From NCBI GenBank assembly GCA_003141555.1, contig PLMN01000029.1, forward strand, positions 275,922 to 339,921: DNA of 64,000 nt, in the 5' to 3' direction. The translations under genes and the position numbers were made by a program. The notes under the pieces were generated by a model. It was not told the origin of the DNA. It searched no databases and saw only the letters and a program-made list of their open reading frames with translations. Positions 28,116-42,556 of the stretch are shown here, piece after piece. This stretch comes from Candidatus Aminicenantota bacterium. Its GTDB lineage: Bacteria > Acidobacteriota > Aminicenantia > Aminicenantales > UBA4085. How positions within the stretch are numbered: the first letter of the stretch is position 1; every line of letters starts with the position of its first letter.

Positions 28116-28242
28116 TGCTTTCATGACGGGAGGATTTAGGCCTAAAGGGGACGAATTTGACAATTTTTATAGGAAAACATAAAGATAGAGGGCAACGCCT
28201 TCGTCCGGAGCTCGGAGAAGGCCGGTCCAAGGAGGTTCGATC

Positions 28243-31200
28243 ATGAAGCTCACGCCGGACAAGCTCAGCCCGCGGAACGCCGCGATTTCCGGGATTATGT
28301 TCGGGCTCCTCCTGAACCTGTTCTTCGCCCCGGCCTACGGACAATATTTCGGCCGGAACAAGGTCCAATACGAAAAATTCGATTACCAGATCCTCAAGAC
28401 CGAGCATTTCGACCTCTATTTCTATCCCGAGGAATCGGCGGCCGTCCGGGTCGCGGCCCAGATGGCCGAGCGCTGGTACAAGCGCTATTCCCGTCTCCTC
28501 AATCACGAGCTCCGGGGCCGCCAGCCTCTCGTCATGTACGCCAGTCATCCCCAGTTCGAGCAGACGACCGTCCTGCCGGAGGTCATGAGTGAGGGGACGG
28601 GCGGCGTCACGGAATCGGCCAAGCGACGGATCATCCTGCCCTTCGGGGGGACGCTGGCCGACACGGACCACGTCATCGGCCACGAGCTCGTCCACGCCTT
28701 CCAGTACGACATCGCGGCCGCCGCCGGGCCGCGCTACGGCAACTCCCAGAATGGGGGAGGCATCGAACGGGCGCCCCTGTGGTTCATCGAAGGGCTGGCC
28801 GAATACCTGTCCATCGGCCCGGTCGATTCGCTGACGGCCATGTGGATGCGGGACATGATCCGCAAGAAGAAGCTGCCGACGATCAAGGACCTGCGCGATC
28901 CGTACAAGTATTTCCCCTACCGCTACGGCCAGGCGCTCTGGGCCTACATCGGCGGCCGCTACGGCGACCTGACCGTGGCCAAGCTGATGCGGGACGTCTG
29001 CCGGGGCATCGACTACGAAGTCGCCCTGGAGAAGACGCTGAACGTCAAGCTGGACCAGCTCTCCAAGGATTGGCAGGAGGCCCTGAAAAAGGACTACACC
29101 CCCGTCCTCGAGTCCACGCAGGTCCCGGCCAAGCTGGGCCGGATCGTGGAGCGAGGGACGGAAACCGATCCGTATAACGTGGCCCCCGTCGTCAGCCCGG
29201 ACGGCAAGTCGTTCATCTTCATCTCGTCCCACGACCTGTTCGCCATCGAGATGTTCATGGGCGACACCAAGACGGGCAAGATCACTAAGAAGCTGACCAA
29301 GACGGCCGTTGATTCCCATTTCCAGAGCATCCAGTTCATCAATTCGGCCGGGTCCTGGAACGCGGACGGCAGCCGGTTCGTCTTCGGGGCGGTGACCGAA
29401 GGGAAGCCCGAGCTGGCTTTCCTCGATGCCGAGGGCCGCAGGATCGTCGATGAGATCAAATTCCCCACGCTCGGCGAGATCCTGAATCCGACTTTTTCCC
29501 CGGACGGCAAGAAGATCGCCTTCTCGGCTCTGGCGGGCGGCTATACGGACATCTACATTTATGACGTCGAGGCGAAGAAGCTCGAGAACATGACCGACGA
29601 CCCCTTCGGCGACATTCACCCGGCCTGGTCGCCGGACGGGCGCTGGATCGTCTTCGTCACGGAAAGGTTCTCGAGCCAGCTGGCCACCAACGGAATGCTC
29701 ATCGGGAATTATGATCTGGCTCTCCTCGATCCCGCCACGGGCGACATCAAGAAGTTCGACGTCCTGCCCGGCGCCAAGAAGATCAATCCCCAATGGGCCC
29801 CGGACTCCAAATCGATCTATTTCGTCTCGGACCGCAACGGGATCTCCAATATCTACCGGGCGAGCCTCGATTCGCGCGCCGTGTCCATGGTGACGAACCT
29901 TTATACGGGCGTCAGCGGCATCTCCAACCTGAGCCCTTCGATCTCGGTCGCGGCCAAGACCAACGACCTCTATTATTCGGCCTACGACGAGGGGGGCTTC
30001 AGCATCTACGCCCTGGAACCCAAGGAGCTCCTGGTCGGGACCCCGGTCTCGGATGAGCCGGAGGCCGGCTTGCCCGCCGTCCTGCCTCCCAAGGACCGGC
30101 AGGGTTCGGAGATCCTCGGCCTGATCAAGAACTCAGGCTACGGCCTGCCTGATTCCTCGAAGTTCTCGACGGCGCCCTACAAGCCCAAGCTGTCGCTCGA
30201 CTACGTGATGCCGCCGACGGTGGGCGTCGGCTACGACCCGTATTACGGGGCCTATGGCGGCGGGGGCCTGGCCGCCTATTGGAGCGACATGATGGGCTGG
30301 CATAACCTGATGGTCATGGCCAACGTCAGCAGCCGCCTCATGGACTCCCAGGCCATGGTGGCCTACCAGAACTCGAAAAGCCGGTTCAACTGGGGAGCCG
30401 TCCTTCAGAGGATGCCCCTCGTCTACGGCGATTATGCCGAGTCCTTCGACGGGAGCAACATCGTCGAACAGGAGATCCTCTATCGTCAGATCTATTATCA
30501 GGCCGGCGTTTTCGGCAGCTATCCCTTCAGCACGTTTTCCCGCGTCGAGCTTTCGACCGGCTACAACTACATCCAGTTCAACAACGTGATCTATACGAGC
30601 GTTTATGATTACTACACGGGCCAGGCGCTGGTCGTCGACAGCCGGACCGACCTGCCTTCCCCGCCGGGGATCCAAATGGGCTACGTCGGCGCGGCGCTTG
30701 TCTACGACAGCTCGATCTTCGGGGCCACGGCGCCGATCATCGGCCAGAGCTATCGGCTCGAAGTGAGCCCCTCGTTCGGCACCCTGAACTACTACAGCGT
30801 CACCGCGGACTTCCGGAAATACATCGTCCCGGTCAAGCCGTTCACCCTGGCCTTCCGGGTGATGCACTACGGCCGCTACGGCAGCGGCGCGGAGGACAGC
30901 CGCCTGTATCCGATGTACCTCGGCTACGATATGCTCGTCCGCGGCTATGACTACGAATCCTTCACGGCCGACGAGGCCACCAACGGCACCTTCAACATCG
31001 ATCGCTTGTTCGGCACCAAGATCGCCGTAGCCAATGTCGAGCTGCGCTTCCCCTTATTTGGCCTGCTCGGGTTGGGCAAGGGCTATTACGGGATCTTCCC
31101 CTTGGATTTCGTCGCCTTTTACGACGCAGGCCTCGCCTGGGGCCGCTCCTTATACAGCGATAACAAGCCCTGGTTCGTCAGCGGGGGCAATCCGGATTGG

Positions 31201-31353
31201 AAACCCCTCACGAGCGCCGGCGTCGGCGTCCGGGTGAACCTGTTCGGCTACATCGTCCTAGGCGTGAATTACGTCAAACCGTTCCAACGGTTGGACGCCA
31301 GCGGGAAGGCCGTACCGGCTTATTTCCAGTTCAGCTTCTATCCGGGATTCTGA
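28243..31353 (+). CDS. Gluzincin peptidase - TolB-like propeller - Omp85-like barrel fusion
   Basis: A 1036-residue protein with signal peptide 1-33. Residues 45-280 are a zinc peptidase (Peptidase_MA-like): HELVH at 147-151 and a downstream Glu ligand in WFIEGLAEYL (E183). Residues 300-620 form a TolB/WD40-like propeller with repeated SPDGKKIAF-type blades. Residues 680-1036 are an outer-membrane barrel with an Omp85-type VRGY motif (R900, G901) and a terminal Phe (FYPGF), the usual BAM recognition signal. AAGGAGG precedes the ATG. It is monocistronic, with a possible sigma54 promoter before it and a strong terminator after. I infer a surface protease or barrel-linked quality-control factor; nothing proves secretion through the barrel. 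Confidence 0.83.
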   Translation: MKLTPDKLSPRNAAISGIMFGLLLNLFFAPAYGQYFGRNKVQYEKFDYQILKTEHFDLYFYPEESAAVRVAAQMAERWYKRYSRLLNHELRGRQPLVMYASHPQFEQTTVLPEVMSEGTGGVTESAKRRIILPFGGTLADTDHVIGHELVHAFQYDIAAAAGPRYGNSQNGGGIERAPLWFIEGLAEYLSIGPVDSLTAMWMRDMIRKKKLPTIKDLRDPYKYFPYRYGQALWAYIGGRYGDLTVAKLMRDVCRGIDYEVALEKTLNVKLDQLSKDWQEALKKDYTPVLESTQVPAKLGRIVERGTETDPYNVAPVVSPDGKSFIFISSHDLFAIEMFMGDTKTGKITKKLTKTAVDSHFQSIQFINSAGSWNADGSRFVFGAVTEGKPELAFLDAEGRRIVDEIKFPTLGEILNPTFSPDGKKIAFSALAGGYTDIYIYDVEAKKLENMTDDPFGDIHPAWSPDGRWIVFVTERFSSQLATNGMLIGNYDLALLDPATGDIKKFDVLPGAKKINPQWAPDSKSIYFVSDRNGISNIYRASLDSRAVSMVTNLYTGVSGISNLSPSISVAAKTNDLYYSAYDEGGFSIYALEPKELLVGTPVSDEPEAGLPAVLPPKDRQGSEILGLIKNSGYGLPDSSKFSTAPYKPKLSLDYVMPPTVGVGYDPYYGAYGGGGLAAYWSDMMGWHNLMVMANVSSRLMDSQAMVAYQNSKSRFNWGAVLQRMPLVYGDYAESFDGSNIVEQEILYRQIYYQAGVFGSYPFSTFSRVELSTGYNYIQFNNVIYTSVYDYYTGQALVVDSRTDLPSPPGIQMGYVGAALVYDSSIFGATAPIIGQSYRLEVSPSFGTLNYYSVTADFRKYIVPVKPFTLAFRVMHYGRYGSGAEDSRLYPMYLGYDMLVRGYDYESFTADEATNGTFNIDRLFGTKIAVANVELRFPLFGLLGLGKGYYGIFPLDFVAFYDAGLAWGRSLYSDNKPWFVSGGNPDWKPLTSAGVGVRVNLFGYIVLGVNYVKPFQRLDASGKAVPAYFQFSFYPGF

Positions 31354-31370
31354 GGAACGAAGACGCATGA

Positions 31371-31406
31371 CCCTCGGGGTCCGATCGGGCCCCGAGGGGT
31401 TTTTTT
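31371..31406 (+). terminator. Strong intrinsic terminator
   Basis: A perfect 9-base stem CCCTCGGGG / CCCCGAGGG with a 10-base loop is followed by G and seven T, 17 bases past the stop of the peptidase-barrel gene. It clearly ends that transcript. Confidence 0.9.
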
Positions 31407-32618: not shown

Positions 32619-33800
32619 ATGTCTTTCGATTTCGACACCCTCGTCGATCGGCGCCGGACGGCGTCCCTCAAATGGGATTTCTGTGAACGCGTCCTCGGCG
32701 TGTCCGGCGTCATCCCGATGTGGGTGGCTGACATGGATTTCCCCGCGCCTCCGGTCGTGACTGAAGCGCTCCGGGCGCGCGCGGCCCATGCCGTCTACGG
32801 GTATCCCCTGGTTCCCGCTTCATTTTGGAGCGCGGCCGCGGGTTGGTTCGAGCGGCGCCAGGGCTGGGCCGTCCGGCCGGACCAGATGAGCCTCATTCCG
32901 GGCGTCGTGCCCGGCCTCAACCTCTGCGTCAAGGCCTTCACCCGGCCAGGCGACAAGATCGTCATCCAGACGCCCGTCTACCACCCCTTCTATTCCTCGA
33001 TCGAGAACAACGGGCGGCGCATCGTCAAGAACCCCTTGAGCTTTCAAGGAGGCCGCTTCGTCATGAATCTCGGGGCGGGGGAGCCTTGGAGCGATCCCCG
33101 GACGCGGATGCTGATCCTCTGCAGCCCGCACAATCCGGTCGGCCGTGTCTGGAGCCGCGAAGAGCTCGGGGCGCTGGCCGAGGCTTGCGCGGCCCGCGAC
33201 CTGGTGGTTATCGCCGACGAGATCCACGGCGATCTCACCCTGCCGGGCCGTCGCTTCGTCCCTTTCGCCTCGCTTTCGCCCGCTGCCGCGGCCCGGACCG
33301 TGACCCTGACCGCGCCGAGCAAGACATTCAACCTGGCCGGGCTCGGCACAGCCCTGGCCGTCGCTTCCAATCCCCGGCTGAAGGGTCCGTTCGACGCCCA
33401 GATCCAAAGCTCGGGCCTGACCATCGGCAACGTTTTCGGCCTGGCCGCCTGCGAAGCGGCCTATGCCGGGGGAGACGCCTGGCTCGACGAGCTCCTGGCC
33501 TATATCGACGGCAACGCCGCGTTCACCCGGGATTTTTTCGCCGCTCGTGTTCCGGCCATCAAGTTCCTGCCGCCGGAAGGGACGTACCTCGGGCTTCTGG
33601 ATTGCCGGGAGCTGGGGCTGGACCCGCGGGAGCTCAACGATTTCTTCCTAAGAAAGGCCAAGGTCTATTTCGACCCGGGGCCCCGCTTCGGCGAGGAGCT
33701 CCGGGGATATCAAAGGATCAATCTCGGATGCCCCCGGGCGCTTCTCGAGGAAGGCCTGGAGAGGATCGCCCGAGCCGCCGAGATCCTGCCCGGGCTTTGA
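32619..33800 (+). CDS. patB: PatB/MalY-type PLP C-S lyase (cystathionine beta-lyase-like aminotransferase fold)
   Basis: A 393-residue cytoplasmic fold-type I PLP enzyme. It begins FDFDTLVDRRRTASLKWD and continues IPMWVADMDFPAP, both diagnostic of the MalY/PatB group. Active-site features are N172 (SPHNPVG), the PLP-pyridine Asp200 in ADEIHGD, and the Schiff-base K235 in APSKTFNLAGL. The family cleaves cystathionine or cysteine conjugates, releasing thiols and pyruvate. Only GAGG lies upstream of the ATG, and the 15-base gap suggests translation coupled to the CBM9-like gene, an unexpected partner. The reaction is confident at family level; the substrate is not. Confidence 0.88.
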   Translation: MSFDFDTLVDRRRTASLKWDFCERVLGVSGVIPMWVADMDFPAPPVVTEALRARAAHAVYGYPLVPASFWSAAAGWFERRQGWAVRPDQMSLIPGVVPGLNLCVKAFTRPGDKIVIQTPVYHPFYSSIENNGRRIVKNPLSFQGGRFVMNLGAGEPWSDPRTRMLILCSPHNPVGRVWSREELGALAEACAARDLVVIADEIHGDLTLPGRRFVPFASLSPAAAARTVTLTAPSKTFNLAGLGTALAVASNPRLKGPFDAQIQSSGLTIGNVFGLAACEAAYAGGDAWLDELLAYIDGNAAFTRDFFAARVPAIKFLPPEGTYLGLLDCRELGLDPRELNDFFLRKAKVYFDPGPRFGEELRGYQRINLGCPRALLEEGLERIARAAEILPGL

Positions 33801-33837
33801 GGACGGGCGCCCGGAACCTGTTTTGGAGGAGGAGATC

Positions 33838-35043
33838 ATGCGAAGATCGAGGTTCGTCGCCGCCGTGGTGGCGTCGGCCCTGCTCTCGGGTTGGGGTTGC
33901 TCCCGCCGATCGCTCCCCAACGCGTCCGCCGATGATGTGGGCATGTCGAAGGAGCGGCTGAGCCTCGTCCACGGGCTCATCCGGGAGGCCATCGCCCGCA
34001 AGGAGCTTCCGGGCGCGGTGCTTCTCGTGACCCGGCAGGGCAAGATCATCCTCCGCGAGGCCTACGGGGACAGCCAATGGGTCCCCGACCGCAAGCCCAT
34101 GTCGGCCGACATGATCTTCGATCTCGCCTCGGTGACCAAGCCGGTCGCGACGGCGACGTCGATCCTCATCCTCGCGGAGAGAGGCCGGATCTCGCTCTGG
34201 GACAAGGTCAAGGCGCATGTCCCGGAATTCTCCCCGTACAAGGACGAGTGGGGGATCGCCGCCGAGGACGCCCGGATTTGGAACCTGCTGACCCATACCT
34301 CCGGGCTCCCGCCGTACACCAATGCGGACGAGGCCGCTAAGAAGCTCGGGACTCCGTGCCGGACCGAGGACCTCGTCAAGCTCATCGCCGGCCTGCCCAA
34401 GACCAATCCGCCCGGGGCCGCCTTCCATTACAGCTGCCTGGGCTACATTACGCTGGCCCAGATCGTCCGGAACATCACCGGGAAGACGATCGCCGAGTTC
34501 GCTGAAGAGAATATCTTCAAGCCGATCGGAATGGCTCACACGTTCTACAATCCGCCGGCCGACGTCCGCGCGCTCTGCGTGCCTACCCAGGTCATCAACG
34601 GGAAGCCCCTGGTCGGCATCGTCCATGACCCTCTGGCCCGGCTGCAGGGCGGCATCTCGGGCAACGCGGGGCTGTTCTCCACGGCGGACGATCTATCGCT
34701 GTTCGCCCAGATGCTCCTGAATCAGGGCGACTCCAAAGGGGGGCGCATCCTGGGCCCGCTCGCCGTCGAACGGATGACTTCGATCTTCCCCAAGGCCGCG
34801 GATTTCGGGCGCGGCCTTGGCTGGGACCTGAGCTCGGCCTATGCCAGCAACGGGGGGGACCTCTTCGGCCCGAAGTCCTACGGCCATTCGGGCTATACGG
34901 GAACGTCGATCTGGATCGATCCCGAAACCGAGACCGTCGTCATTTTCCTGACCAACAGCGTCCACCCGGACGACAAGGGACAGATCGTCCCCCTGCGCAG
35001 CCGCGTGGCCAACATCGTGGCCGCGGCGATCGTTAAAAAGTAA
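33838..35043 (+). CDS. Beta-lactamase-fold serine hydrolase (class C / EstB-like)
   Basis: A 401-residue protein. The SxxK motif is S98-V-T-K101 (DLASVTKP), a Tyr motif lies in HYSCLGY and the KTG-equivalent is GHSGYTG. All are intact, so an active serine acyl-enzyme hydrolase is expected. The family includes esterases, D-amino-acid peptidases and beta-lactamases. The N-terminus is hydrophobic and ends in Cys21 after GWG, a poor lipobox, so lipidation is uncertain. The ATG at 33838 follows GAGGAGGAG; five upstream codons are in frame but lack a site. It is 37 bases after the PatB gene, same direction. Confidence 0.87.
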   Translation: MRRSRFVAAVVASALLSGWGCSRRSLPNASADDVGMSKERLSLVHGLIREAIARKELPGAVLLVTRQGKIILREAYGDSQWVPDRKPMSADMIFDLASVTKPVATATSILILAERGRISLWDKVKAHVPEFSPYKDEWGIAAEDARIWNLLTHTSGLPPYTNADEAAKKLGTPCRTEDLVKLIAGLPKTNPPGAAFHYSCLGYITLAQIVRNITGKTIAEFAEENIFKPIGMAHTFYNPPADVRALCVPTQVINGKPLVGIVHDPLARLQGGISGNAGLFSTADDLSLFAQMLLNQGDSKGGRILGPLAVERMTSIFPKAADFGRGLGWDLSSAYASNGGDLFGPKSYGHSGYTGTSIWIDPETETVVIFLTNSVHPDDKGQIVPLRSRVANIVAAAIVKK

Positions 35044-35115
35044 GAGCGGTCGCTTCCGCGCGCGGTCCGAGACTCCGCCGGGGCCGATCATAAATTCGAG
35101 CTGAAGGAGGGGAGC

Positions 35116-37587
35116 ATGCCGTCATTCCGCAAAGCCGCCGTTTTCGCTCTGGCCGTTCTTATCGCCGCCTCGGGACTCTGGGCCCAGGATATCCGGCCGC
35201 GGGACCTGACGGCCTGGCTCGTCGGGCACGCCCATATCGACCTGAGCTGGCTCTGGCGTTGGGAGGAGACCGTCCGCGACGTGGCCGTCCAGACATTCGC
35301 CGGCACGCTCGCCCAGATGGCGAAGGAGCCGGACTTGACGTTCGCCCAGAGCCAGCCCGCCCTTTACGAGGCGATCGAGGCGACGAACCCGGATCTTTTC
35401 CGTGCGATCCGGGACAAAGTCCGCGAGGGAACATGGATCCCGGTCGGAGGGATGTGGGTCGAGCCCGACCTGAACATGCCCGACGGCGAAGCGCTCGCCC
35501 GGCAGTTGCTATACGGCAAGCGCTATTTCCTCGAGAAGTTCGGCGTGGACGTGAAAATCGGCTGGAACCCGGATTCGTTCGGACACAGCGGGCAGCTCCC
35601 TCAGATTTTAGCCAAAGCCGGCATCAAGGATTACGTCTTCGGTCGCTGCGCCCCGGACAAGACGGTCGCGTTCACCTGGAAGGGCAAGGACGGCTCGACG
35701 GTCATGGGCTATGTCCCGCCGGGCTTTTATAACGTCGGGCTGAAGGACGGGGTGAGGGAGATCGCCGCGAGCGCGGCCAAGATGTCCCCCCTGAAAGACG
35801 TCATGATCCTCTACGGCGAGGGCGATCACGGCGGGGGGCCGCGCGATGCCGATCTCCAGGCGATCGACAAATACAAGCGCGATCGGACGCAGCCGCGGCT
35901 GAAGTTCGCCAAACCCGGGGATTACTTCCGGATCCTGGAACAGGCGAAAGCCATTCTTCCCGAGTTCGAGGGCGAGCTGAATTTCATCTTCCCCGGCTGC
36001 TATACGACCCAGGTCGAGACGAAAGCCGCCAACCGGAAAGGGGAGGGCCTGCTCGTCGCCGCCGAGAAATTTTCGGCGCTGGCCACGGCCGGAGGATACC
36101 GGGACTACTATCCGGAGCGCGACCTCGACGAGGCTTGGAAGATCGTGCTTCGGCACCAGTTCCACGACATCCTGTGCGGGTCGGCCATCGGCCCGGTCTA
36201 CGACGAGGTCCGCGGCTTCTATGAACAGGCCTTTGCCCGGGGCCGCCGGGCGCTCGATTTTTCGCTTGAGTCGATCACGAACGGCGTCGACACGCGCGGG
36301 CCCGGCGTCCCCGTTCTCGTCTACAACGGGCTCGCCTGGGCGGTGTCCGGGCCGGTGGTCTGCGATCTCGCCCCGAGGGGGCTGGAAGGGCCACTCAAAG
36401 TCCTGGACGACAAGGGCGGCGAGGTGCCGTTTCAAATCGTTCCTTCCGCCGGCTCCGTATCCGGCCCGAATCTTCGGCTCCTGTTCATCGCGGAGGATGT
36501 CCCATCGCTCGGATACGCCCTTTACCGGGTCATCCCGGGCGAACATGCCGAGTTCAAGCCCGGGCTTTCGGCGGGCCCGGATTTCCTCGAAAACGAGTTC
36601 TTCCGGGTTTCGCTCGATTCCCGGACGGGTTGGATCACGAGCCTGAAGGACAAATCCCGGAACCGGGAAATCCTCGGAGGGCCGGCGAACGTCCTTCAGG
36701 CCATCGCCGACGAGCCGAAGGAGATGTCGGCCTGGGAGCTCGGGCTCAAGGATAGGGTCGAGAACATCGGCGAAGGCGCCAGGATCGAAATGGTCGAGTC
36801 CGGGCCGGTCCGGGCCGTCGTGAGGGTGACCAGCCTCTTCCGGCGCTCGTCCTTTACCCAGGACATTATTCTTTATCGCCATATGCGCCGGGTCGATTTC
36901 AAGGTGAGCGCGGACTGGCAGGAGCGGAACGTCATGATCAAGGCCTCGTTCCCCCTCGACCTCCGCGATCCGCGGGCCGAGTTCGAAATCCCGTTCGGGA
37001 CGATCTCGAGGCCGGTGGGAGGCGCTGAGGTCCCCGCCCTGCGCTGGGCGGATGCGAGCGATGGAGAAGGGGGGGCCGCCCTCCTCAACGACGGGCGCTA
37101 CGGCTACGATGTCAAGGGCGGGGTCTTGCGCATCTCGGTCATCCGCGGCGCGACGAATCCCGACCCGGAAGCCGACCGCGGCCGCCACGAATTCGGATAT
37201 GCGCTCGTCCCCCATGGAGGCGATTGGAAGGAGGGGCAGGTCGTCCGGCGCGGATACGAGTTCAACAACCCGCTCCTGGCCCGCGAAGCGATGGCTCATT
37301 CGGGAGACCTTCCCGCGAGCAAGTCGTTCGTCCGGGTCGGGCCCGAGAACGTCGTCCTGACCGCGATGAAGATGGCCTCCGGCTACAATGACCGCAATAT
37401 CATCGTCCGGCTGGTCGAAATGGAGGGCCGGAAGACGGAGGCCGTCATCGATTGGCCCTGGCCGGTCCAGGCTTGGGAAACGGATTTAATCGAGCGGCCC
37501 CTGAAAAAAATCACGGGAGAAGGAACCCCGCTCCGCGTCCCCTTGGAGCCGTACGAGATCAAGACGATCAGGATCACCCGCCGGTGA
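35116..37587 (+). CDS. Secreted GH38 alpha-mannosidase
   Basis: An 823-residue protein with a signal peptide (1-23). GHAHIDLSWLW gives zinc ligands H38/H40 and D42. The likely nucleophile is D153 in WNPDSFGHSGQLPQIL. GEGDHGGGP near residue 238 is another GH38 signature, and HQFHDILCGSA near 350 carries the last zinc His. The C-terminal beta-sandwich half is of normal length. The enzyme removes alpha-mannosyl residues, here in the periplasm or outside. AAGGAGGGG lies before the ATG. It follows the serine hydrolase by 72 bases and converges with the M48 gene. Confidence 0.92.
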   Translation: MPSFRKAAVFALAVLIAASGLWAQDIRPRDLTAWLVGHAHIDLSWLWRWEETVRDVAVQTFAGTLAQMAKEPDLTFAQSQPALYEAIEATNPDLFRAIRDKVREGTWIPVGGMWVEPDLNMPDGEALARQLLYGKRYFLEKFGVDVKIGWNPDSFGHSGQLPQILAKAGIKDYVFGRCAPDKTVAFTWKGKDGSTVMGYVPPGFYNVGLKDGVREIAASAAKMSPLKDVMILYGEGDHGGGPRDADLQAIDKYKRDRTQPRLKFAKPGDYFRILEQAKAILPEFEGELNFIFPGCYTTQVETKAANRKGEGLLVAAEKFSALATAGGYRDYYPERDLDEAWKIVLRHQFHDILCGSAIGPVYDEVRGFYEQAFARGRRALDFSLESITNGVDTRGPGVPVLVYNGLAWAVSGPVVCDLAPRGLEGPLKVLDDKGGEVPFQIVPSAGSVSGPNLRLLFIAEDVPSLGYALYRVIPGEHAEFKPGLSAGPDFLENEFFRVSLDSRTGWITSLKDKSRNREILGGPANVLQAIADEPKEMSAWELGLKDRVENIGEGARIEMVESGPVRAVVRVTSLFRRSSFTQDIILYRHMRRVDFKVSADWQERNVMIKASFPLDLRDPRAEFEIPFGTISRPVGGAEVPALRWADASDGEGGAALLNDGRYGYDVKGGVLRISVIRGATNPDPEADRGRHEFGYALVPHGGDWKEGQVVRRGYEFNNPLLAREAMAHSGDLPASKSFVRVGPENVVLTAMKMASGYNDRNIIVRLVEMEGRKTEAVIDWPWPVQAWETDLIERPLKKITGEGTPLRVPLEPYEIKTIRITRR

Positions 37588-37624: not shown

Positions 37625-39103
37625 TCAGACTTCCTGCGGAGCTTTCTGCGCGTCCTCGACGAGAATCTGCAGGATCTCGAGCTCATCCGCGTCGAACCAT
37701 GTCTTGAAGCAGGATAAGCATTTCTCCACGGGAACGAAGTACTGGTAATTATACGGGCGGGTGACCATGCCGTAGCCGCAGGCCGGACAACGCGGATGCT
37801 CGGCGCCGAGGTCGGCGGTCTTCTGGTCCTTGATCGGGTTCCGGAGGAAGGCCCCCCGGAACGCTTGGGCTTTTTCCCGAAGGGCGGGCGAGAATTCCAT
37901 TTCCGTCCGATCAAGGATTCGGCCGATCGCCTCCTGGTCGACGAACTTCCCCGTGCAGCACCGGCAGATGCGGATGGGGACGCCTTCGTAGAAATCATCG
38001 GCCAGCGGCACTCCGCATCGCGGGCAGATTCCTTTCCCGTCCGAGGCCGAGCCCGGGGCCTTTCGGACGGGTACGGTGCGGGGCGTCTCTTCGGAGGATT
38101 TCTCGATCGCCTTCGCCGTGGCGCGGCGCGCCTGTGATTCCCAGACCTGGCGGATCACCTCCTGGGGGGCCACGTTCGCCATGTCCGCAAGCAGCCGGAT
38201 CCTTTTCATCACGGGCGGATGGCTGTCCGCCCAGCCGCCTCGAACTCCTTCCTCGGAGCAGAGGGCGGGGGAGACGATGAACAGGGGGGCGTAGGTCAGG
38301 GCGAAATCTCCGACGAACGAGTTCTTGAGAGTGGCCTTGTAGATGGCCCGGGCCAGGGCGAGCGGGTTCCGCCCGAGCTCGACGGCGGCGGCGTCGGCTT
38401 GGATCTCCCGGCCGCGGCTTATAAAGCGGCCGAGGAGCCGCATTAAGACCACGGATACGGACAGGTTTTCGGCACGGTCGTCGTCGGCCCGCGAGCGCAG
38501 GCCTTCGGTCAGCCTCTCGAAAAAATCGGCCAGGGAGCAGACAAGCGTTAGGAAGACCGCGTCCCCATCGGCGATATGGGCCAATTCGTGGGCGGCGGCC
38601 GCTTGGATCTCATCTCGGGTGAACTCGGCCAGCAGGCCCTCGGTCATCGCCACGGCGGGCGTCCCGTCGGCTTCGACCAAAGCCAGGGAATTGAGGGAAT
38701 GGTCGGGGATAACCCAGGGCTTGACCTTGGGCAGGCCGGCCGCGATGCCCATTTCTTCGACGACGTCCGCCAGGACGAGGTGGTAACGGTCCTTGAGATC
38801 GGGGGGCCGGGCGCCGAGCCTCTTCAGGATGAACGCCGCTCCATTGCGGCGGGCGTCATAGAGCTGGAAAGCGGCGATCCCGAAGGCAAAGACAACGGCC
38901 AGCCCGACGAGGCCGGCCAGGTAGGACAGGGACAGCATCCGGGGCCGGGCGAAGACGAGGCCGACGCCGACGTCGAGCGCCAGGAACAGGACGACGAACG
39001 TGCCGGCGTAAAAGAGGGCGAGGACAAGGAACAGCCCGCGCGTCCGGACCTTCTCCTCCTCCTGGATTCTGTAGAAGCTTTTAGGAGGTGGCTGGGTCTC
39101 CAT
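37625..39103 (-). CDS. M48 membrane metallopeptidase with two C-terminal zinc ribbons
   Basis: A 492-residue protein. Two transmembrane helices (about 24-50 and 58-80) are followed by an M48 domain with HELAH at 172-176 and the third zinc ligand E233 (GREIQADAAA). After a linker (about 330-350) come a zinc ribbon CPRCG...CRCC and a second, CPACG...CLSC, resembling TFIIB-type ribbons. M48 enzymes degrade damaged membrane proteins (HtpX-like). Appended ribbons are unusual and may recruit substrates. The ribosome site is weak. The gene diverges from the tricorn gene and its promoter is at 39114-39142. Confidence 0.85.
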   Translation of the reverse strand: METQPPPKSFYRIQEEEKVRTRGLFLVLALFYAGTFVVLFLALDVGVGLVFARPRMLSLSYLAGLVGLAVVFAFGIAAFQLYDARRNGAAFILKRLGARPPDLKDRYHLVLADVVEEMGIAAGLPKVKPWVIPDHSLNSLALVEADGTPAVAMTEGLLAEFTRDEIQAAAAHELAHIADGDAVFLTLVCSLADFFERLTEGLRSRADDDRAENLSVSVVLMRLLGRFISRGREIQADAAAVELGRNPLALARAIYKATLKNSFVGDFALTYAPLFIVSPALCSEEGVRGGWADSHPPVMKRIRLLADMANVAPQEVIRQVWESQARRATAKAIEKSSEETPRTVPVRKAPGSASDGKGICPRCGVPLADDFYEGVPIRICRCCTGKFVDQEAIGRILDRTEMEFSPALREKAQAFRGAFLRNPIKDQKTADLGAEHPRCPACGYGMVTRPYNYQYFVPVEKCLSCFKTWFDADELEILQILVEDAQKAPQEV

Positions 39104-39220: not shown

Positions 39221-42200
39221 ATGTCCCATCGTCCGCTCCGATCTTTGGCCTTCGTCCTGCTGGCGATCCTCGCCCTGACCGCGACGGCCGCGGCCGTCGA
39301 TATCGCCGATACGAAGCTGCTGACCGATCCGGCGATCAGCCGGACGAATATCGCCTTCGTCTACGCCAACGACGTCTGGGTCGCCGGCCTCGACGGCCAG
39401 GGCGCGCGGCGGCTGACGGCCGGCTTCGGCGTCGAGAGCAATCCGGTCTTCTCGCCGGACGGCTCCCTCCTGGCCTTCACCGGCCAGTACGAGGGGAACC
39501 TCGACGTCTATGTCGTGCCGGTCGCGGGCGGGCTTCCCCGGCGCCTGACCTGGCATCCCGGCGCCGACGTCGTCCAGGGATTCACGCCGGACGGCAAGGC
39601 GGTGCTGTTCACCTCGGGCCGGAATTCCTATTCCGGCCGCTACATGCAGCTCTTCACCGTGCCCCTCGAGGGCGGCATGCCGACGCAGCTCAAGATTCCG
39701 TACGCCTTCCGCGGGACGCTGTCGCCCGACGGGACGCGGATCGCCTACAATCCGCTCTATGACGCTTTCATCCAGTGGAAGCACTATCGCGGCGGGACGG
39801 CGTCCACGATCTGGATCGTGAAGCTGTCCGACTATTCGCTGGAGAAGGTCCCCCAGCCGCCGGACCGGGCGAATGATCCCGGGCCGATGTGGATCGGGGA
39901 CAAGCTCTATTTCCGCTCCGACCGCAACGGCGAATTCAACCTCTTCTCCTACGATCCGAAGTCCAAGGAGGTCAAGCAGCTGACCTTCCACGACGACTAT
40001 CCCGTCCTGTCGGCCTCGGCCGGCGGCGGGAAGATCATCTACGAGCAGGCGGGCCGGCTGCACATCTTCGATCCGGCCGCGGCCAAATCGGCGACGCTGA
40101 CGGTCGGCGTCCCGGCCGACCTGCCCGAGCTCCGGGAGCGGTTCGTGCGCGGGGCCCGCTGGGTGCGGAGCGCGTCGCCTTCGCCCTCTGGGGCCCGCGT
40201 CGCCTTCGAGTTCCGGGGCGAGATCGTGACCGTCCCGGCCGAAAAGGGCGATCCGCGCAACATCACCCAGACGCCCGGGGCGAACGAGCGCTCGCCTCTC
40301 TGGTCGCCCGACGGCACGTCGATCGCCTATTTCTCGGACGCCTCGGGCGAATACGAGCTCCACGTCCGGCCCCAGGACGGCAAGGGCCCGGCCCGGGCCT
40401 ACAAGATCTCCGGGGCGGGCTTCTACGATTCGCCGATGTGGTCGCCCGACGGCCAGAAGATCGTCTTCAGCGACAACTCCCGGACGATCTTCTGGATCGA
40501 CCTGAAAAGCGGGGCTATCAAAAAGATCGCCTCCGACTACCAGCTCGGCGGCCGGGGCGGTACGGCGGGCGACTGGTCGCCGGACTCGAATTGGATCGCC
40601 TACACGCTCAACTCGGCGACCTATATCCAGAAGGTCTATGTCTATTCCCTCGCCCAAGACAAGTCCCATCCGATCACTGATGGCCTGAGCGAGGTGACGG
40701 AGCCCACGTTCGACGCGACGGGCAAATACCTCTATTTCTTCGCCTCGACCGACGCCGGCCCGGTGAAGCAGTGGTTCGACCTGTCGGCGGCCGACATAGA
40801 GATGACGAATTCGATCTACCTCGTCGCCCTGACCAAGGACGCGCCCAATCCGCTCGCGAAGGAGAGCGACGAGGAGAAGGGGACGCCCGACAAGCCGGCT
40901 CCGGCGCCCGCCGACAAGCCCGCGCCGCCGGCCAAGCCGGGTCCGGCGCCGGATAAACCCAGGGCGGACGCCAAGCCGGCCGACGCATTCCGCATCGATT
41001 TCGAAGGGCTCGACCACCGCATCCTCGCCCTGCCGATCCCGGCCGGGAAATACCGCTCGCTGGCCGCGGGCGAGGCCGGCCTGCTCTATTACTTCGAGAC
41101 GGGGAGCGGAAACCCGGGCGGAGGCGGCACGATCCACAAGTTCGACTTCAAGACGCGCAAGGACGAGGCTTTCGCCACGGGTGTCACCGGCTTCGGCCTG
41201 ACCCGCGACCGGAAGAAGATCATCTACGCCGCGAACCAGGGCTACTTCCTGGCGAGCGCGGCGGCCAAGCCCCAGCCCGGGCAGGGCCGGCTCGCCGTCG
41301 ACGCGATCGAGGTCAAGATCGATCCGCGGGCGGAATGGAAGCAGATCTTCGACGAGGCCTGGCGCATCAACCGCGATTTCTTCTACGCGACCAACATGCA
41401 CGGCCACGACTGGACGGCCATGAAGCGCAAGTACGAGGTCTTCCTGCCCGACGTCTCGTGCCGCAACGACCTCAACCGGGTCATCCAGTGGATGTGCTCC
41501 GAGCTCGGCGTCGGCCACCACCGGGTCGGCGGCGGCGACAGCCCGGCGACCCCCAGCGTCGTGCCCGGCGGCCTGCTGGGCGCCGATTACGCTGTCGAGA
41601 ACGGCCGCTACCGGATCAAAAAAGTCTACGGCGGGTTCAACTGGAACCCCGACCTGCGCTCGCCGCTCACGGAGCCGGGCGTGGATGTGCGGGCCGGCGA
41701 ATACCTTCTGGCCGTCGCCGGCAAGGATCTCCGCCCGCCGGCGAACCTTTACGCTGCGTTCGAGAACACGGCCGGGAAGATCGTCGAGATCACGGTCGGG
41801 CCGAATCCCGACGGTTCGGGGGCCCGGACGGCGGCGGTCGTCCCGATCGGGAGCGAAGCGGCGCTCCGCAACCGCGATTGGGTCGAGGGGAACCTCCGGA
41901 AGGTCGATCAGGCCACGGGCGGCCGAGTAGCCTACGTCTACGTGCCCAACACCAGCACCCAGGGGCACGAGTATTTCAAGCGTTATTTCTACCCGCAGGC
42001 CGATAAGGAGGCGATCATCGTCGACGAGCGGTTCAACGGCGGCGGGCTGGTGGCCGACTACTACATCGACCACCTTCGGAAGCCGGTGGTCAGCTACTGG
42101 AACATGCGCTATGGCGCCGATCTCAAGACCCCCAGCGCCTCGATCGACGGGCCCAAGGTCATGCTGATCGACGAGACCGCGGGCTCGGGAGGCGACCTCC

Positions 42201-42556
42201 TGCCCTGGATGTTCCGCAAGTTCAAGATCGGGACCCTCATCGGCAAGCGAACCTGGGGCGGGCTGGTGGGCACGCTCGGCTTCCCGATCCTGATGGACGG
42301 CGGCTTCGTGACCGCGCCCAACCTGGCCATCTGGACCGAGGACGGCTGGGTGGTCGAGAACGTCGGCGTCCCGCCCGACATCGAAGTCGAGCAGAGCCCG
42401 GCCGACGTCATCGCCGGCCACGACCCGCAGCTCGAAAAGGCGATCCAGGTGGCCCTGGAGGAGCTGAAGAAGAACCCGCCGAAGAAGCCGGCCCGGCCGG
42501 CCTATCCGGTCCGGGGGATCATCAAGCAGGGGGCCGCGCCTACCGGGCGGCCTTGA
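39221..42556 (+). CDS. Tricorn-like serine protease (periplasmic)
   Basis: A 1111-residue protein with a signal peptide (1-25). Two beta-propellers (about 30-330 and 335-700) are built of SPDGTRIAY-type blades. A Pro/Ala/Lys-rich linker (about 553-590) precedes the end of the second propeller. The C1 domain has the catalytic His in GVGHHRVGG (H766 or H767), a PDZ domain lies around 785-870, and the core domain carries the nucleophile S989 in ETAGSGGD. All catalytic parts are present. Tricorn cuts oligopeptides; the signal peptide places this one outside the cytoplasm. AAGGAGG precedes the ATG. Its 3' end overlaps the convergent kinase gene by 17 bases. Confidence 0.9.
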   Translation: MSHRPLRSLAFVLLAILALTATAAAVDIADTKLLTDPAISRTNIAFVYANDVWVAGLDGQGARRLTAGFGVESNPVFSPDGSLLAFTGQYEGNLDVYVVPVAGGLPRRLTWHPGADVVQGFTPDGKAVLFTSGRNSYSGRYMQLFTVPLEGGMPTQLKIPYAFRGTLSPDGTRIAYNPLYDAFIQWKHYRGGTASTIWIVKLSDYSLEKVPQPPDRANDPGPMWIGDKLYFRSDRNGEFNLFSYDPKSKEVKQLTFHDDYPVLSASAGGGKIIYEQAGRLHIFDPAAAKSATLTVGVPADLPELRERFVRGARWVRSASPSPSGARVAFEFRGEIVTVPAEKGDPRNITQTPGANERSPLWSPDGTSIAYFSDASGEYELHVRPQDGKGPARAYKISGAGFYDSPMWSPDGQKIVFSDNSRTIFWIDLKSGAIKKIASDYQLGGRGGTAGDWSPDSNWIAYTLNSATYIQKVYVYSLAQDKSHPITDGLSEVTEPTFDATGKYLYFFASTDAGPVKQWFDLSAADIEMTNSIYLVALTKDAPNPLAKESDEEKGTPDKPAPAPADKPAPPAKPGPAPDKPRADAKPADAFRIDFEGLDHRILALPIPAGKYRSLAAGEAGLLYYFETGSGNPGGGGTIHKFDFKTRKDEAFATGVTGFGLTRDRKKIIYAANQGYFLASAAAKPQPGQGRLAVDAIEVKIDPRAEWKQIFDEAWRINRDFFYATNMHGHDWTAMKRKYEVFLPDVSCRNDLNRVIQWMCSELGVGHHRVGGGDSPATPSVVPGGLLGADYAVENGRYRIKKVYGGFNWNPDLRSPLTEPGVDVRAGEYLLAVAGKDLRPPANLYAAFENTAGKIVEITVGPNPDGSGARTAAVVPIGSEAALRNRDWVEGNLRKVDQATGGRVAYVYVPNTSTQGHEYFKRYFYPQADKEAIIVDERFNGGGLVADYYIDHLRKPVVSYWNMRYGADLKTPSASIDGPKVMLIDETAGSGGDLLPWMFRKFKIGTLIGKRTWGGLVGTLGFPILMDGGFVTAPNLAIWTEDGWVVENVGVPPDIEVEQSPADVIAGHDPQLEKAIQVALEELKKNPPKKPARPAYPVRGIIKQGAAPTGRP

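Follow-up and report, generated by a model that had tools for sequence, protein, structure and literature searches.

Omp85 outer membrane proteins have been sorted into ten subfamilies, one of which, WD40-Omp85, carries a TolB-like propeller and no POTRA domain, according to the accessible part of the 2014 survey by Heinz and Lithgow (PMC4104836). A decade later, WD40-like Omp85 proteins are still described as not well characterised in the available text of a 2024 paper (PMC11116518). The accessible sections of a 2025 study describe an outer membrane protein (OMP)-TolB-like clade that combines a barrel with a six-bladed TolB-like propeller and is often automatically annotated as TolB; a Rossmann fold is placed beside the propeller, and TolB is proposed to have descended from such proteins (PMC12204202). 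Here we analyze a gene for a 1036-residue, three-domain protein, located at 28243..31353 on the forward strand of a 64,000-nucleotide stretch of DNA from a Candidatus Aminicenantota bacterium (contig PLMN01000029.1; hereafter, the window). A first-pass annotation of the window had read this chain as an HExxH peptidase, a TolB-like propeller, and an Omp85-like barrel, three parts held to be known only as separate proteins. The latter statement has to be withdrawn for two of the parts, as propeller-Omp85 fusions have been in print as the WD40-Omp85 subfamily since 2014, even by the accessible part of that survey (PMC4104836); in the searchable texts, apparently only the peptidase module is undescribed. 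No description of a peptidase in propeller-Omp85 proteins was recognised in the searchable literature, which consisted mostly of listings and had subscription papers and supplements outside it, and the available text of a paper on the Bacteroidota β-barrel assembly machinery (BAM) contained no peptidase, propeller, or WD40 term (PMC12611786).

That one chain carries, in order, a signal peptide, a gluzincin zinc peptidase, a six-bladed PD40 propeller, and a POTRA-less Omp85 barrel is in our view nearly certain. Pfam matched Peptidase_MA_2, PD40, and Omp85 in that order along the protein, and an AlphaFold2 model of the full chain, built from a 19-row alignment, had a mean predicted local distance difference test (pLDDT) score of 82.7 and a predicted template modelling (pTM) score of 0.78. 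The TolB-type propeller and BamA-type barrel folds were both recovered in this model, in agreement with the three modules on a single chain that were first proposed. Among eight relatives scanned with Pfam, all three families were above their cut-offs in three (L161, L163, and L176). The motifs that had drawn attention to the reading frame were located at residues 147 to 151 (HELVH), 183 to 188 (EGLAEY), and 899 to 902 (VRGY) and at the terminal F1036, with SPDGKKIAF in the propeller part.

The gluzincin domain spans residues 34 to 300 (28342..29142, plus strand), as placed by Pfam, fold, and profile alignments. Folded alone, these residues reached a pLDDT of 83.9 and a pTM of 0.84, and the fold matched M30 lugdulysin (7bb8_A; Z 15.8, 241 residues, root mean square deviation [rmsd] 6.0), a Vibrio-type M9 collagenase (7wss_A; Z 15.7, 220 residues, rmsd 3.3), and an M1 aminopeptidase (6atk_C; Z 14.2, 223 residues, rmsd 3.9). 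The top Foldseek match was IRAP (2.9e-4), and profile searches gave weak matches in the same families (7esi_A, 0.0038; 3cia_A, 0.02). Three motifs make up the putative active site, namely, the zinc and catalytic motif HELVH (28681..28695), EGLAEY (28789..28806), where E183 probably supplies the third zinc ligand, and YRYG (28918..28929), in which Y226 is the probable catalytic tyrosine, all on the plus strand. In profile alignments, E183 falls on the EG motif of collagenase and M1 enzymes, and Y226 falls on the tyrosine of collagenase YRWG and aminopeptidase YVKG. This tyrosine is catalytic in M1 aminopeptidases.

Conservation was assessed in a 31-row alignment made from loci in which the reading frame was found; six loci outside it (L038, L039, L054, L058, L061, and L062) have intact motifs. 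H147, E148, H151, E183, and Y226 are each invariant in all 31 of these diverse relatives, with identity down to 23%, as is G184. All five catalytic positions are among the 19 invariant columns of the 267 in the peptidase region (hypergeometric probability of ~1e-6, a guide figure, as the positions had been named because of the motif). The trio of HExxH, EG, and YxxG was present in 85 of 86 loci taken from similarity rankings with no regard to the motif; the sole exception, L063, loses its start under an ATG-only reading, and HELTH is present with another start. Across the 31 rows, the mean frequency of the majority residue is 0.52 in the peptidase versus 0.42 in the barrel, and 17 of 256 peptidase columns are invariant versus 16 of 383 barrel columns. 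The peptidase is thus better conserved than the barrel, which fits an enzyme as the point of the protein. Judging from these sequence patterns and the model, the peptidase is very probably active. The zinc site first read from HELVH and the downstream glutamate looks intact and formed, as far as model and sequence show, and Y226, missed earlier, can be added to it. A further stretch, EGTGGVTE...R (residues 117 to 129; 28591-28629), lies 30 residues before HExxH and has E117 and R129 in 31/31 rows, with residues 113 to 119 modelled at low confidence; we presume that this is about where M1 enzymes carry their substrate-binding GxMEN segment.

The peptidase had initially been assigned to the M48 type, as in BepA, which turned out to be wrong. 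No M48 model was found by Pfam at E<=1 in the protein or at 1e-3 in the 31 relatives, which rules out this kinship, and the nearest solved folds are those of M30, M9, and M1. The fold-search rows shown hold no M48 entry either, which alone would be insufficient to exclude M48. BepA is a zinc peptidase that acts at the outer membrane as a protein separate from its barrel partner; here, in contrast, a peptidase of another family is fused to the barrel. The window does encode a true M48 peptidase, at 37628-39103 on the minus strand, six kb from the three-domain gene; it matches PF01435 at 1.5e-19 and also has a TFIIB-type zinc ribbon.

The C-terminal third, residues 654 to 1036 (30202..31350, plus strand), is an Omp85 barrel by Pfam, by fold, and by the match of its profile to BamA. 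PF01103 matched residues 748 to 1000 (E 1.3e-9; 38.5 bits against a cut-off of 24), VIA-align placed residues 654 to 1036 on the BamA barrel 9cs2_A (Z 22.5, 301 aligned, rmsd 3.7), and the barrel profile matched BamA at 1.2e-11. VRGY (30937..30948, plus strand) is the Omp85 loop-6 motif and aligns with VRGF of BamA, with R900 in 30/31 rows. The E/D strand motifs of the barrel are in register with those of BamA (E933 in 31/31 and D961 in 30/31), and the last residue is F or W in every row. Pfam, fold, and BamA alignment therefore agree on the barrel with VRGY near residue 900 and a terminal Phe that the first-pass annotation had described. No POTRA domain was found by Pfam at E<=1 in the protein, and the linker between propeller and barrel (residues 607 to 653, 47 residues; 30061..30201, plus strand) is too short for one. 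Omp85 membership does not depend on such a domain in the non-POTRA subfamilies (PMC4104836).

Residues 301 to 606 (29143..30060, plus strand) form the six-bladed propeller, with a PD40 match at E 3e-25 (87.9 bits) and with residues 322 to 598 superposed by VIA-align on the TolB propeller 1c5k (Z 25.5, 244 aligned, rmsd 2.6). The early label "TolB-like" holds as far as a six-bladed PD40 propeller is meant and fails for TolB specifically. TolB_N (PF04052) was not found by Pfam at E<=1 in the protein, and the TolB model gave 123 bits where 343 are required. The E value of 1e-35 for this model might suggest a specific TolB kinship, but PD40 control proteins outside TolB scored higher (a tricorn-like protein, 163 bits; L002, 149 bits; L005, 142 bits), so that a hit to this model is not specific among PD40 proteins and was not accepted as a sign of TolB kinship. 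With a propeller profile, four true TolBs scored 157 to 201 bits versus 111 to 144 bits for five other PD40 proteins, a small lead that suggests, at the level of sequence, a weak preference for TolB. The peptidase profile matched TolB proteins no better than chance (best E of 0.2 among 11 proteins). The window also encodes a tricorn-like protease (39221-42553, plus strand) with a PD40 propeller, Tricorn_C1, PDZ, and S41 domains, which outscores the three-domain protein on the TolB model.

The three-domain protein is an old, large family and not a one-off fusion. Matches were found in 56 of the 59 nearest-relative genomes at E<=1e-30 and in 145 of 297 genomes of the window's phylum at 1e-20; both tallies include the window's own genome, and some of the matches are a paralogue with ~27 to 31% identity. 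A scan of genome contigs gave at least 571 relatives, of which 80 were kept. These loci were labelled Gemmatimonadota (32), Acidobacteriota (21), Aminicenantota (4), or unplaced (17), with one each from Calditrichota, Bacteroidota, Ignavibacteriota, Bacillota, Actinomycetota, and Pseudomonadota. In the tree, the Bacillota, Actinomycetota, and Pseudomonadota loci branch within clades formed by other phyla, and their bins probably carry wrong labels. The tree comprised 77 of the 80 loci, leaving out L108 and L133, which parsed as broken, and the incomplete L077, and it placed the window protein among Aminicenantes, with a nearest relative 72% identical. Because the contig scan used the pattern HE[LI][VTA]H, the presence of HExxH in 79/80 of its loci carries no weight.

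The same domain order is also carried by KSB1-labelled genomes, and a match was found in 148 of 150 genomes of a group that is probably Gemmatimonadota (centred on the genome behind L107) and in 121 of 198 genomes of a group that is probably Bacteroidota (centred on the genome behind L110), often with more than one copy per genome; the window genome has one. In many relatives from these two groups, BLAST aligns residues 20 to 600 only, but each of the 20 loci retrieved from them also matched the barrel profile, at E 1e-32 or better. Some of the loci scored with the peptidase and barrel profiles had also supplied rows for building them, and L057-L073 and L161-L180 were hand-picked from ranked lists and not drawn at random. 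L161-L180 are independent of the profiles, and all 20 match both. A check of the taxonomic spread thus places the three-domain order in several phyla.

We propose that the protein is an outer-membrane-anchored periplasmic zinc peptidase that clears or trims envelope proteins, a reading to which we give an even chance as a whole. The chain would be exported by Sec, as its signal peptide suggests, and its barrel would be inserted by the cell's own BAM, in keeping with the barrel fold and the C-terminal aromatic residue. Since an Omp85 chain enters its barrel from the periplasm, peptidase and propeller would lie on the periplasmic side, suspended below the barrel. PlpD, another Omp85 protein, was found to have its enzyme domain in the periplasm, according to the accessible part of the report (PMC11116518), which by analogy supports a periplasmic location; for the peptidase part we regard this location as probable. 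H147, H151, and E183 would bind zinc, E148 would activate water, and Y226 would steady the transition state, such that polypeptides are cut by a gluzincin mechanism. The propeller may restrict entry to unfolded or short chains, acting as a gate or as a docking platform. On the periplasmic face of the outer membrane, envelope proteins would then be cleared or trimmed, with the barrel as anchor and possibly as conduit or sensor.

Several observations weigh against this proposal. The Peptidase_MA_2 match in the window protein (PF13485, residues 116 to 282) has an E value of 8e-6 and 26.2 bits and stays under the cut-off of 32.4, although the family was above its cut-off in five of the eight scanned relatives (L161, L163, L168, L173, and L176; 36.9 to 56.3 bits). 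The loops near the active site (residues 113 to 119 and 164 to 170) have a pLDDT of <50 in the AlphaFold2 model, and the mutual placement of the domains cannot be judged from that model, which makes gating by the propeller a guess. Finally, tasks other than quality control or processing of envelope proteins would fit as well, and we rate this one at slightly below an even chance. The sub-threshold Pfam score could also mean that the peptidase fold is retained for structure or binding only, as a pseudo-peptidase scaffold. This is very improbable, as the five catalytic positions are invariant down to 23% identity and the trio is nearly universal among the rank-picked loci, a conservation unlike that of decaying enzymes.

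The direction in which the enzyme faces and the role of the barrel allow two further explanations. The barrel might deliver the peptidase and propeller to the outside to digest external protein, as was once proposed for patatin-Omp85, and the gamma-glutamyltranspeptidase gene just upstream would suit the use of peptides. That gene is not a conserved neighbour, however, and the entry of the Omp85 N terminus from the periplasm and the periplasmic enzyme domain of PlpD, as given in the available text (PMC11116518), also argue against a surface or secreted peptidase, which we consider unlikely. Somewhat unlikely, too, is an assembly or translocation factor, that is, a BamA/TamA-like insertase or translocase with a propeller that docks partners and a peptidase that processes or removes clients. 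The Omp85 hallmark residues are kept beyond the need of an anchor, and Heinz and Lithgow suggest a BamA-BamB-like platform for WD40-Omp85 in the accessible part of their survey (PMC4104836). Yet no POTRA domain and no conserved bam neighbour accompany this barrel, and the same genome encodes four other Omp85 proteins, three of them with POTRA domains (five, three, and one stretches). Of the outer-membrane protease or assembly-quality factor that was initially suggested, the protease stands as a natural reading and the assembly-quality role was too strong. The most likely reading is still the periplasmic peptidase anchored by its barrel. The window genome also has a separate TolB. Replacement of BamA or TolB is ruled out by the separate presence of both kinds, and the three-domain protein therefore adds to BAM and Tol-Pal and is no substitute for either.

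Full-length relatives of the reading frame are free of internal stops. A Shine-Dalgarno-like AAGGAGG (28229..28235, plus strand) lies 7 bases 5' of the ATG, and a strong intrinsic terminator with a 12-bp stem and a T run (31371..31398, plus strand) begins 18 bases past the stop. The preceding gamma-glutamyltranspeptidase gene ends 334 bases upstream. Residues 1 to 33 (28342 being the first base after them; 28243..28341, plus strand) are a probable Sec signal peptide by sequence, with a model helix at residues 10 to 28 and a predicted cleavage site; it has no Cys, and the protein is therefore not a lipoprotein. Directly after it, the segment QYFGRNKVQY (residues 34 to 43; 28342..28371, plus strand) has G37 and N39 invariant in 31/31 rows despite a pLDDT of <50, and it perhaps contacts a partner or another part of the protein.

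No conserved operon or partner gene was found among 78 loci (L108 and L133 being left out) compared by their neighbour families, and the commonest neighbour family was shared by 10 of the 78 at most. Ten shared neighbour families were scanned, and those matching Pfam are sugar, amino-acid, radical-SAM, regulatory, or lipid-transport genes. Because it has its own ribosome-binding site and terminator and no conserved partner, the gene looks like a free-standing single-gene transcription unit outside the bam and tol-pal loci. An MlaD-family gene lies nearby in 7 of the 78 loci (Pfam-scanned in L150 only). In L131, L145, L146, L150, L151, and L153, from the Gemmatimonadota clade, it stands downstream with an ABC ATPase family in convergent orientation; in L110, it stands alone upstream. 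Such Mla-like neighbours occur in too small a number of Gemmatimonadota to support a conclusion. Downstream in the window (32619-37584) are genes for a class I/II aminotransferase, a beta-lactamase-fold hydrolase, and a GH38 alpha-mannosidase, with no link seen.

Compared with known systems, the protein shares its peptidase fold and the HExxH...E...Y set with M9 collagenases, M30 lugdulysin, and M1 aminopeptidases, although none of these entries is titled as an outer-membrane barrel protein and their identity to the peptidase third is 9 to 19%. With TolB it shares the six-bladed PD40 propeller and not the TolB_N domain. PlpD and patatin-Omp85 likewise place an enzyme domain N-terminal to an Omp85 barrel, but they have a lipase, one POTRA domain, and no propeller in the accessible part of their description (PMC11116518). 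The survey of Omp85 subfamilies, where accessible, also defines a "metalloprotease" subfamily by PF00149 (PMC4104836). In Pfam, PF00149 is named Metallophos. We take Metallophos to be a phosphoesterase family, and the published subfamily is probably a phosphoesterase-Omp85 fusion, distinct from the gluzincin-propeller-Omp85 chain.

The closest likeness is to WD40-Omp85, with which the protein shares an N-terminal propeller, an Omp85 barrel, and the lack of POTRA domains; in contrast, the available text on that subfamily mentions no peptidase domain (PMC4104836). If active, the enzyme would provide a testable activity for the uncharacterised WD40-Omp85 subfamily. As a protease that is part of an outer-membrane barrel protein, it would then also rank among the more common envelope enzymes that lack an assigned function in the probable Gemmatimonadota and Bacteroidota groups. 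The protein also resembles the OMP-TolB-like clade in its barrel and six-bladed propeller. It differs in that the domain beside the propeller matches gluzincins and not a Rossmann fold, a comparison made with the clade by description only, in the accessible sections (PMC12204202). It is a speculative and quite improbable extension that OMP-TolB-like proteins are largely barrel-anchored zinc proteases, with the "Rossmann" fold being a gluzincin and the whole a self-contained vet-and-cut machine, and that TolB is their stripped-down descendant. The peptidase-propeller-barrel family also bears on how TolB has been proposed to originate (PMC12204202).

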